Of a stretch of DNA of 33,951 bases, positions 10,726 to 32,595 are shown piece after piece; position 1 is the first letter of the stretch, and each line of letters opens with the position of its first letter. Source of the DNA: Pontiellaceae bacterium B1224 (GTDB lineage: Bacteria; Verrucomicrobiota; Kiritimatiellia; Kiritimatiellales; Pontiellaceae); assembly GCA_029432815.1 (NCBI GenBank), contig JAROBA010000049.1:1-33951 (forward strand). Direction: 5' to 3'. The notes under the pieces are model-generated. The model searched no databases and was not told the DNA's origin. It saw only the letters and a list, made by a program, of their open reading frames with translations. Both the position numbers and the translations under genes were made by a program.

Positions 10726-10816
10726 GTCAGTTCCTGTGTTTGCAAAAAGAGCAGGAAACGTAGCGCATTTGTCAGCCGCTCACAAGCTGTGATTGGGAAT
10801 AAGGATGTGGGCACCT

Positions 10817-10891: not shown

Positions 10892-12355
10892 ATGCAAAAG
10901 TACGAATCAACCCCGATCCCGCTGGTTATCTACGGTGTGCCGTTTCATAACGTCACATTCAACGAAGCCGTGGAATGGATTGTCGACCGGGTACGCTCTG
11001 GCCGCCCGGCCAATATAGCCACGGCCAATCTCGATTTCGTGACGAAGGCCTGGCATGATCCGGAACTTCAGCGCATCCTGATTGATGCCGATCTTGTACT
11101 GGCCGATGGGTTTCCAATGGTGAAACTCTCTCCTTTTTTCGGACCGCAGCTAAAAGATCGGGTGACCGGCTCCGACCTCACGCCGCTGCTGGCTGCGCGG
11201 GCCGCGCAGGATGGGTTGAGTGTGTTTGGGCTGGGCGGTGCGGCCGGCGTGGCCGAAAAAGCGCTCGAAATTCTTAAAAAGCGGCACCCGGAGCTGAAAA
11301 TTGCCGGAAGCTATTCTCCGCCCTTTGCTCCGCTGCTGGATATGGATCATCGCAAAATTCTCCAGCGATTGGAAAAAAGCCGCCCCGATATCCTGTTGGT
11401 CGCCTTTGGATCGCCGAAGCAGGAAAAATTTATCAGCATGCATGTTCGCGGCTGGAATGTGCCGGTGACCATGGGTATTGGCGCCTCGCTCGATTTCATT
11501 GCCGGAGCGCAGAGGCGCGCGCCGGTCTTCTTTCAAAAATGCTGTCTGGAATGGCTCTGGCGGATTTGCAGCAATCCACGCCGTCTGTTTATCCGCTATC
11601 TTGCCAACCTGCACTTCCTGTTTTCCGCCTCGAGGCAGATGTTTCTGATTAATCAGATGCGGGATAAACCCGGTCCGTTCCAGACATTGGAAGACAGCGA
11701 TTTCCAAACGCTGGAAAAAATGGGAATTGCAGCTGATCGTTTCCAGCCATTGGAAAGTGAAACGCTTGCGGCTGAGTTTGTAACCCGTATCGATGGGGTT
11801 GCTCAGGGGCGAAATCTGCTGCTCGACCTGCATGCCCTGCCGTGGCTCAACAGTCTGGAGCTGGGGGCATTGCTGGAAATAAATAAATTCTGCCGACAGT
11901 GGGGGAAGCGGCTCATTCTCTATGCGCCGCGATCGAAGGTCCGGCGCCTGCTCGAAATCTGTCGATTGACCGACTACTTCAATGTGGCCACCCGGATCGA
12001 TGAAGTGCAGGGTATCGTCGAGTTTATCGAAGAACATGTGGAAGGCGAGATGGCGTATGAAATGGGTGCGCTCAAGCTTGAGCTCCCTGTCGAACTGACC
12101 GCCGCAACCCTGCCTGCCTTTGAGCAGCAAATGAGCTTCATTCATGAAGAACTGAAGGAGAAGGGGGGGCTGAAAACGGTCGAAGTCGATGCCTCCCAAC
12201 TTGACTTTATCGACAGCTCCGGGCTTGGCTTCCTGATTTCTCTTAAAAAAACAACGCAGGGGAAGGGCGTCTCCATGTCCATTACCCATCTCGCACCCAA
12301 ACCCCGTCGTACCTTCGAAATTGCCCGGGTTGATAAAATTCTCCTGCACAGCTGA
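10892..12355 (+). CDS. WecG/TagA-type glycosyltransferase fused to two STAS domains
   Basis: A 487-residue fusion. Residues 1-250 are a GT26 (WecG/TagA/CpsF) glycosyltransferase, which in known members adds N-acetylmannosamine-type sugars to lipid-linked carriers. Visible motifs are T-A-N-L-D-F-V, A-D-G-F-P (Asp72), R-V-T-G-S-D, V-A-F-G-S-P-K-Q-E and G-I-G-A-S-L-D-F-I-A-G, with a basic amphipathic end near 220-250. A linker with three F-Q-x-L-E palindrome repeats (263-287) leads to two STAS domains. The first (about 290-385) has L-N-S-L-E-L-G in place of the usual D-S-S-G-L-G. The second (about 390-487) keeps F-I-D-S-S-G-L-G with phospho-acceptor candidates S442/S443. The start is uncertain: 10892 fits the family N-terminus, while ATG 10805 (and TTG 10793) would add a stretch containing two palindromes. 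The linkage implies phospho-regulated polysaccharide or teichoic-type synthesis (inference). Confidence 0.85.
   Translation: MQKYESTPIPLVIYGVPFHNVTFNEAVEWIVDRVRSGRPANIATANLDFVTKAWHDPELQRILIDADLVLADGFPMVKLSPFFGPQLKDRVTGSDLTPLLAARAAQDGLSVFGLGGAAGVAEKALEILKKRHPELKIAGSYSPPFAPLLDMDHRKILQRLEKSRPDILLVAFGSPKQEKFISMHVRGWNVPVTMGIGASLDFIAGAQRRAPVFFQKCCLEWLWRICSNPRRLFIRYLANLHFLFSASRQMFLINQMRDKPGPFQTLEDSDFQTLEKMGIAADRFQPLESETLAAEFVTRIDGVAQGRNLLLDLHALPWLNSLELGALLEINKFCRQWGKRLILYAPRSKVRRLLEICRLTDYFNVATRIDEVQGIVEFIEEHVEGEMAYEMGALKLELPVELTAATLPAFEQQMSFIHEELKEKGGLKTVEVDASQLDFIDSSGLGFLISLKKTTQGKGVSMSITHLAPKPRRTFEIARVDKILLHS
11678..11755. repeat. Three palindromes encoding the GT-STAS linker
   Basis: Copies at 11678-11692, 11702-11716 and 11741-11755, each one mismatch from TTCCAA-N3-TTGGAA, read F-Q-T-L-E, F-Q-T-L-E and F-Q-P-L-E. 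A two-mismatch copy at 11360-11374 (L-Q-R-L-E) lies in the glycosyltransferase domain of the same gene. Confidence 0.85.
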
Positions 12356-12418
12356 TAACTGCGTAAAAGAAGGTCGGAAGGGTTTTCCAATCCTGAGGAA
12401 ACCGCTAGATTTCACCGC

Positions 12419-30618: not shown

Positions 30619-31461
30619 ATGACAAAACAAGCGGTTATCTACATTCATGGGATCGGGAAGCAGCAGGATGGTTATTCTCGTAAGAGTGCAATCAAGTTGC
30701 AGGAAACGTTTGAGAAAATCCTCAAGAAGAAAGATGACTCCATCGAACCGCCGGATCTCATTTTCCGGGAAGTTAACTGGGCCACCATCACCTCCGGACC
30801 GCAATCCGTACTGTGGTCTCGGGTGAATAAAAAACATGATCTCGATATGGTTAAGCTCCGCAAGTTCATGGTCGCATTTGCCGGCGATGCGATTGCTTAT
30901 CAGAAAACAGGCGAGGGCGATGAAGTTTATTATGAGATCGATGCTAAGGTGCAAAAGAGCATCGATGCCGTTAAAGCGGAATATCCGGACGACGAAATTG
31001 AATTCACGTTTGTGGCGCACAGTTTAGGAACCATCGTTGTTTCAAACTATCTTTACGACCATTCCGACGACATCACTGCCACGAACCTGTTTACACTGGG
31101 ATCGCCCATTGCGGTCTGGGCCTTACGTTATGGCGATCCATCTAAAGCCGACAGCCCAACGCAGGTCGAGCGACCGTACGGAGCCTGGATAAATATTCTC
31201 GATGACGAAGATATTGTTGGCTATCCCCTGCGCGAATTAAACCCCCACTATAAAAAAGCGGTCGACATGGACTACGTCACCGAAATCGGCGGCGTCATCA
31301 GCATGGGAAATCCCATCAGTCATATTGGCTATTGGGAAGACAACAACGCCATAAAACCCATCGCCTACAAACTCATGCTCGACTATCTGCGCATCCACCA
31401 AGGGAAGTCGTACAGTAAACCCGCTTACCTGAAATACATCCGCTCGCTTTGGAATATATAA
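30619..31461 (+). CDS. AHSLG-type alpha/beta hydrolase, function unknown
   Basis: A 280-residue predicted cytoplasmic serine hydrolase of lipase/esterase fold. The oxyanion motif H-G-I-G is at 10-13, the nucleophile is Ser135 in V-A-H-S-L-G, and a candidate acid is Asp197 in D-D-E-D-I-V. A candidate base is His235 in P-I-S-H-I-G-Y-W. No signal peptide is seen. The segment 20-120 between the first strand and the nucleophile elbow is long and charged. The substrate is unknown. It is followed 105 bases later by a second, distantly related hydrolase, which shares H-G-x-G, A-H-S-L-G-T and the general order but little else. It is preceded by an AAGGGG ribosome-binding site. Confidence 0.8.
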   Translation: MTKQAVIYIHGIGKQQDGYSRKSAIKLQETFEKILKKKDDSIEPPDLIFREVNWATITSGPQSVLWSRVNKKHDLDMVKLRKFMVAFAGDAIAYQKTGEGDEVYYEIDAKVQKSIDAVKAEYPDDEIEFTFVAHSLGTIVVSNYLYDHSDDITATNLFTLGSPIAVWALRYGDPSKADSPTQVERPYGAWINILDDEDIVGYPLRELNPHYKKAVDMDYVTEIGGVISMGNPISHIGYWEDNNAIKPIAYKLMLDYLRIHQGKSYSKPAYLKYIRSLWNI

Positions 31462-31566: not shown

Positions 31567-32595
31567 ATGCCGAAAAGTACAATCATGCTTGTTCACGGAA
31601 TGGGAAAGCCTACTGATGAAATGTTCAATCAATGGCAAGCGGCACTTAAGCGTATCTATGAACAGTATTCAGAAGGAGAGCTCTTTGAAGATCGCTTCGA
31701 TTGTTTCAACATTGAATATGATTCAATCTTTGAAAACTTGCGCGATAATTGGAATGAGCAAATCGAGAGTATTTTGAATAGTGATGTAACCGGACTGCCA
31801 TTCCCAAGCGAGGATGACCTTTCGGCTCTTACAGAGGATAACTTCTATACAACTCATATTCAGGATGTGCTTCTGTACCGCTTTGTTCCCATGGTCGCTG
31901 AACATGTTCGATCGCATGTTATTGCCAAGATCAATGACGTGGTTCAGGCGGTGCATAGTTCTTCAAAAATTTCCATAATCGCCCATTCTTTAGGAACCTC
32001 CGTCATACACGATGCTGTGAATGCCATGTACAACACTCCGGGGGATAATGGGCAGACTCTTTCTCCGCTGGATTTTCGATTTCAAACGGTTGCAATGATT
32101 GCAAATGTCAGCCGGACGCTTAAGACCCGCTGGAACCCATACGATCCATTGGTAAGACCGGGACTTGGCAACTCAAGTAACTATGTCACCAATACGTTTC
32201 TAAGCACATCCCATAAATGGGATCCCCTGGTTTCGTTGCGAAGGTTTGCTCCGGCGGATAACTGGCCTGACGCTGAGACCGTTTCCAAAGGGCGGGTTTC
32301 AGTTGTTGAACCAAGTATTATTACACGGCCCAATATTCATGACTTTTTACACTACCTGGAAAACCCGCAGGTCAACATACCGTTGTTCCGGATGCTTCGG
32401 CATAAACGCTTTGTCAATCAAGGAGAGCAGGAGGCTGCTGAAAATGCATATTTTGCAGCAAATCCAATCAGCGCGTTCGATGATTATCGAAAGGAATTAA
32501 AGTCAATGCTTACAGGAGAGGCAGATTTCTCGTGGAAGCGTTTGATGGATGTATCCAAGGACTTTGAGATGCTGGTGAAAGATTTTACTGATTAA
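31567..32595 (+). CDS. Second AHSLG-type alpha/beta hydrolase, function unknown
   Basis: A 342-residue predicted serine hydrolase. It has H-G-M-G at 10-13, nucleophile Ser141 in I-I-A-H-S-L-G-T-S, candidate Asp219 in H-K-W-D-P-L and candidate His258 in P-N-I-H-D-F-L-H-Y. No signal peptide is seen. The W-D-P-L and N-I-H-D-F-L-H-Y context resembles DUF/lipase-like proteins annotated only as hydrolases. A clear AGGAG ribosome-binding site precedes it. The next gene starts 12 bases on, so the two are probably cotranscribed. Base composition is lower in G+C than the core genes. Confidence 0.8.
   Translation: MPKSTIMLVHGMGKPTDEMFNQWQAALKRIYEQYSEGELFEDRFDCFNIEYDSIFENLRDNWNEQIESILNSDVTGLPFPSEDDLSALTEDNFYTTHIQDVLLYRFVPMVAEHVRSHVIAKINDVVQAVHSSSKISIIAHSLGTSVIHDAVNAMYNTPGDNGQTLSPLDFRFQTVAMIANVSRTLKTRWNPYDPLVRPGLGNSSNYVTNTFLSTSHKWDPLVSLRRFAPADNWPDAETVSKGRVSVVEPSIITRPNIHDFLHYLENPQVNIPLFRMLRHKRFVNQGEQEAAENAYFAANPISAFDDYRKELKSMLTGEADFSWKRLMDVSKDFEMLVKDFTD

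Follow-up and report, generated by a model that had tools for sequence, protein, structure and literature searches.

The gene at positions 10892 to 12355 of the window (the whole stretch of 33,951 nucleotides from Pontiellaceae bacterium B1224 that was analysed) encodes a glycosyltransferase of family GT26 that continues into two STAS domains. The reading I favour, with a probability of roughly 0.5, is that this protein catalyses the second step in a lipid-linked pathway to exopolysaccharide, and that its STAS tail provides the docking site and the switch element for control by a serine kinase/phosphatase partner system. STAS-type domains are normally on/off phosphorylation switches in bacteria. 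The features on which the argument depends are the following, the first seven in window coordinates and the last on another contig of the same genome.

10892..12355, + strand: GT26-STAS-STAS gene, 487 aa plus stop codon, with the same start Met in orthologues
10919..11518, + strand: GT26 (WecG/TagA/CpsF) catalytic domain, residues 10-209, from Pfam, the structural match to TagA/TarA and the alignment to 7mpk
11519..11653, + strand: GT26 C-terminal appendage, residues 210-254, with membrane and active-site helices (helices 212-254 in the model)
11693..12037, + strand: STAS1, residues 268-382, motif W-L-N-S-L-E-L-G, from Pfam and a separate model
11852..11854, + strand: codon of Ser321, the acceptor position of STAS1 (Ser in 45/47)
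12038..12352, + strand: STAS2, residues 383-487, motif F-I-D-S-S-G-L-G, from Pfam and a structure match
12215..12217, + strand: codon of Ser442, the acceptor position of STAS2, right after Asp441 (Ser 28, Thr 1, Cys 2 of 31)
L086:2398-6909 (contig G000:C111): cassette of Hpt, receiver-SpoIIE-HATPase_c_2, Bac_transf, stand-alone STAS and hexapeptide transferase genes

The gene is a single intact frame of 487 codons (start ATG at 10892, stop codon 12353-12355); an in-frame TTG lies upstream at 10793, but seven orthologues begin at the Met of 10892. In each domain the nucleotide differences from three close relatives cluster at third codon positions, a pattern that points to one conserved reading frame under selection from the glycosyltransferase through both STAS domains. 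The preliminary description of a GT26 enzyme followed by two STAS domains is borne out by Pfam, by NCBIfam profiles (TIGR00377 among them) and by AlphaFold models, and these profiles and models, together with the third-position bias in every domain, indicate that the fusion is a genuine protein. The alternative that a frameshift or misassembly joined separate genes was rejected and retains a negligible probability: no point in its support was found, selection holds one frame from end to end, and the same layout recurs in many independent assemblies from the Pontiellaceae and related Kiritimatiellota/Verrucomicrobiota, including that of the cultured Pontiella sulfatireligans. A 421-codon open reading frame on the opposite (-) strand (window 11150-12415), which overlaps the gene for most of its length, is presumably a side effect of codon composition rather than a gene. 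The surrounding genes in the window are secA, tilS, ftsH, a dapA-family gene and those for an ABC-class ATPase and a D-Tyr-tRNA deacylase. Two adjoining hydrolase-like open reading frames on the + strand, at 30619-31461 and 31567-32595, were also seen, the first without a Pfam match and the second with a weak match to the DUF676 serine esterases.

The enzyme part matches the Pfam profile Glyco_tran_WecG over residues 66-236 (3.3e-53, 180.4 bits against a cut-off of 27.4) and TIGR00696 with 121 bits, the cut-off being 69. In the AlphaFold model of the whole protein, built with 23 homologues (mean pLDDT 89.3, pTM 0.88), residues 9-209 superpose on TagA/TarA with a Z score of 24 at 35% identity. 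The key residues of T. italicus TagA, namely T37, N39, D65, R83, Q167, E168 and, in the appendage, R214 and R221 (PMC6493773), are all kept in the alignment to 7mpk as T44, N46, D72, R90, Q177, E178, R224 and R231, the last two being the appendage arginines. The protein shares its catalytic domain, C-terminal appendage and catalytic residues with the TagA/TarA and WecG family; unlike TagA, which stops at the appendage, the protein runs on for about 230 further residues that carry the two STAS domains. The GT26 domain would add the second sugar to a presumed lipid-linked primer. In TagA, activity requires that the C-terminal appendage folds at the membrane and so completes the active site (PMC6493773). 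As the STAS tail starts directly after this appendage, membrane engagement could plausibly be altered by a partner that binds the tail.

The Pfam STAS profile matches two stretches of the tail (7.9e-21), as does TIGR00377, and structure prediction gives a STAS fold for both domains. Residues 382-487 of the model match RsbV (Z 14.3), SpoIIAA and other STAS proteins (Z about 14), while STAS1, modelled alone with 12 homologues (pLDDT 90), matches the STAS protein TM1081 (Z 13.6) and also the SulP/SLC26 STAS domains and the YchM STAS domain bound to acyl carrier protein (Z 9.8-12.8). Acceptor motifs were counted in 47 GT26-STAS proteins, STAS2 being scored in 31 of them. The Asp of STAS2 is present in all readable cases and is followed by Ser in all but three (one Thr, two Cys), whereas the next residue, Ser443 here, is Ser in 12/31 and Ala in 17/31. 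STAS1 has Ser at the acceptor position in all but two proteins and Asp in 16/47; in the present protein it reads N-S-L-E, with the Ser retained, the Asp and Gly of the Asp-Ser-x-Gly motif gone and Glu in place of Gly. Within the class the STAS1 motif is W-L-x-S-x-E-[LI]-G, and outside it most relatives retain D-S-x-G or D-S-x-A. The acceptor-position residue is located at the start of a helix in the model. Since the phosphorylated Ser of STAS proteins comes right after Asp, the positions that matter are Ser321 and Ser442 rather than Ser443; in SypA, with its motif L-D55-S56-S57-G, the phosphorylated residue is S56 (PMC10120452). STAS1 usually lacks this Asp and has Glu for Gly, and may therefore not serve as a kinase substrate. 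The canonical D-S-S-G-L-G phospho-site initially noted in STAS2 thus stands for D441-S442, but Ser443 is not a conserved acceptor; likewise, the statement that L-N-S-L-E-L-G in STAS1 lacks the Asp and part of the acceptor region is right as to Asp and Gly but overlooks Ser321. The proposed division into one sensing and one structural STAS domain finds no support, as STAS1 has the full fold together with its acceptor Ser, and nothing indicates sensing.

Full-length relatives with 63-77% identity are present in further genomes of the same genus, and named Pontiellaceae carry them as well, among them Pontiella sulfatireligans F21T at 70% identity (on NZ_CAAHFH010000002.1). Other families of the class share the layout, with identities of 41-46%, and more remote examples come from further classes of the Verrucomicrobiota. 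Proteins that join GT26 to only one STAS domain were found in family f2, a member of the same order, in other Verrucomicrobiota and on individual contigs classed as Armatimonadetes, Acidobacteria (Bryobacterales) and Gammaproteobacteria; the f2 relatives (L069, L071, L072, L073 and L021) have lost STAS2 and keep a shortened STAS1 only. Matches from Chlorobium show no STAS domain in the frame read. Multi-enzyme fusions of the forms GT2-GT26-STAS-STAS (L084:2524-5121) and GT4-GT26 (L082:7776-10130) were observed too. The genome of the window itself, 5.38 Mb in size, encodes within a polysaccharide gene cluster an 823-aa protein that combines two GT26 domains with a VanZ-like N terminus (L085:8640-11108, contig G000:C88), and long frames with GT26 matches of this kind exist in other genomes of the genus. 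The opinion that no system of this exact architecture has been described agrees with the mostly open-access literature searched, in which no description of GT26-STAS-STAS was found; the architecture is nevertheless common in the lineage, and a different fusion is on record. PMC8256260 presents all4160 of Anabaena as a glycosyltransferase fused to STAS, citing a heterocyst envelope polysaccharide study for it, with the STAS domain at the N terminus rather than in a C-terminal tandem as here.

Among the genes within the window no kinase/phosphatase switch for the STAS tail was found. Cognate serine kinase and phosphatase functions, which the preliminary description had proposed to look for, are encoded elsewhere in the same genome, in the C111 cassette. 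Its receiver-SpoIIE-HATPase_c_2 fusion (546 aa), which has a counterpart of 73% identity in Pontiella sulfatireligans F21T, has intact N-box and PP2C metal motifs, and is accompanied by the Bac_transf sugar transferase (244 aa), the stand-alone STAS protein (113 aa, motif F-M-D-S-A-G) and a hexapeptide/Bac_transf-like protein of 472 aa. The layout is similar to that of an HptB/HsbR/HsbA set inside a polysaccharide operon, and D-S is present in every stand-alone STAS of such cassettes. The genome also has a 178-aa STAS gene directly before a GAF-SpoIIE phosphatase gene (L087:3961-5956, contig G000:C135). I did not retain this pair as the partner: in the tree its STAS is isolated at the end of a very long branch, and the surroundings showed no sugar genes, so that the C111 cassette is preferred.

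The tie between enzyme and cassette comes from relatives. In two genomes of other families (G273 and G221) the cassette genes directly adjoin the GT26-STAS-STAS gene, in G157 an Hpt-receiver-SpoIIE-HATPase protein is its divergent neighbour, and in G145 and G038 the kinase/phosphatase fusion is on the same contig, 12 and 18 kb off. Two genomes of another class (G243 and G140) have, within a few kb, a stand-alone STAS and a HATPase-SpoIIE protein whose domains are arranged differently, and on the Armatimonadetes contig Bac_transf, GT26-STAS, hexapeptide transferase and STAS genes are consecutive. Across 79 genomes of the class, which share ancestry, come from an incomplete class listing and were scored by the best candidates per genome, 22 carry both GT26-STAS and the full-length fusion, one GT26-STAS alone, two the fusion alone and 54 neither (Fisher p = 3e-16); counted by family, the figures are 8, 1, 1 and 20 (p = 1.3e-5). 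Standing beside a matching kinase and phosphatase in relatives, the gene is a strong candidate for an enzyme directly controlled by the switch. The earlier idea of a surface-polysaccharide enzyme under partner switching is to this extent borne out, by the adjacent exopolysaccharide cassette and by co-occurrence, while control of activity is what I infer from them. In the STAS tree most fused STAS1 domains, most fused STAS2 domains and the cassette stand-alone STAS proteins fall into separate groups, although its deep forks are unreliable because of few columns and long branches.

Membership of the GT26-STAS-STAS protein in an exopolysaccharide pathway is quite probable, and the chances that its STAS tail is phosphorylated seem about evenly balanced. 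The favoured reading draws on the computed domains and folds, the intact GT26 and kinase/phosphatase motifs, the conserved acceptor serines, gene linkage and co-occurrence. The Bac_transf protein would make the lipid-linked primer, to which GT26 would add the next sugar. A phosphorelay from Hpt to the receiver domain would set the response regulator-SpoIIE-HATPase protein as either phosphatase or kinase, and this protein would then dephosphorylate or phosphorylate STAS serines, namely that of the cassette stand-alone STAS, Ser442 of STAS2 and perhaps Ser321 of STAS1. Which STAS partner is bound would depend on phosphorylation, the tail being presumed to bind partners at all, and the bound partner would either permit or prevent the folding of the GT26 appendage onto the membrane beside the primer enzyme. 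Such direct control of GT26 activity or membrane engagement through the tail is suggested somewhat tentatively. With similar reserve, the switch may act on the polysaccharide enzyme itself and not on gene expression, the Hpt/response-regulator kinase-phosphatase toggling the glycosyltransferase's own STAS domains.

Several observations speak against a switch. The stand-alone STAS of the cassette is the more obvious substrate, and phosphorylation of the glycosyltransferase tail may be absent. The gene is unlinked to the cassette both in the genome of the window and in the rest of its genus, and has housekeeping genes as neighbours (secA; dapA family). Five f2 relatives do without STAS2, and in family f34 the cassette stands beside, and works with, a GT26 enzyme without STAS that is N-terminally fused to a degenerate sugar-transferase domain. 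The cassette is thus tied to GT26 enzymes generally, the STAS tail being one wiring option among several. Degenerate Bac_transf domains N-terminal to GT26 were seen at L170:4373-5752, L171, L172, L173, L176 and L179, mostly in a kinase/phosphatase/STAS cassette, with an additional GT4 domain in front at L176.

The main rival to the switch is that the STAS domains form a permanent, non-switching scaffold, comparable to MlaB, that places GT26 by the primer transferase or other pathway proteins. MlaB holds such a role in the Mla transporter. I consider this rather unlikely, even though the switch motif of STAS1 is without its Asp and Gly, STAS2 is absent from f2, the acceptor-position residue, sitting at a helix start, could be retained for structure, and the replacement of STAS by a sugar-transferase-like domain in another group would fit a role in proximity; D441-S442 is nearly invariant in STAS2, and the kinase/phosphatase fusion accompanies the protein in 22/23 genomes. 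STAS domains classically bind HATPase anti-sigma kinases, and the cassette does encode a HATPase domain of the kind that STAS binds, so that the signal might run in reverse, in which case a trigger enzyme would titrate the HATPase anti-sigma/kinase module with its tail and so let gene expression respond to the activity of the pathway. In the stretches read, however, neither a sigma factor nor a transcription regulator could be recognised beside the cassette, and the linked genes are those of polysaccharide enzymes, which leaves this reading improbable. Still less probable is a tail that senses a ligand such as a nucleotide, acyl carrier protein or lipid. Ligand sensing has been proposed for some SulP STAS domains, and the fold of STAS1 resembles these and YchM, but such likeness is common to all STAS domains and the genomic partners indicate kinase/phosphatase control.

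The partner switch proposed here would use chemistry like that by which two known systems control exopolysaccharide or biofilm; it is a candidate relative of these, with an enzyme as its target. In Vibrio fischeri, the response-regulator serine kinase/phosphatase SypE and the D-S STAS protein SypA govern surface polysaccharide (PMC4517449, PMC10120452); the parts and the polysaccharide context are alike, but SypE has the order kinase-receiver-phosphatase and SypA is a single domain, whereas here a pathway enzyme itself carries the STAS domains. In Pseudomonas aeruginosa, the Hpt protein HptB, the kinase and phosphatase response regulator HsbR and the STAS protein HsbA are co-encoded (PMC5085249), as are Hpt, receiver-SpoIIE-HATPase and STAS in the present cassette; HsbA targets FlgM and a diguanylate cyclase, while this cassette has sugar transferases and co-occurs with the STAS-fused GT26.

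STAS partner switches govern biofilm or exopolysaccharide in several bacteria, but the link from the STAS protein to the machinery of synthesis is still missing: for SypA, which acts 'below transcription', the target has yet to be identified (PMC10120452). A STAS tandem on GT26, in genomes with a matching kinase/phosphatase cassette, names a concrete and testable target, and if the proposed reading is true, the GT26 enzyme would be the direct output missing so far for SypA-type systems. Cultured Pontiella strains produce sulfated glycosaminoglycan-like exopolymers (PMC7356697), and the GT26-STAS-STAS module may bear on their regulation.
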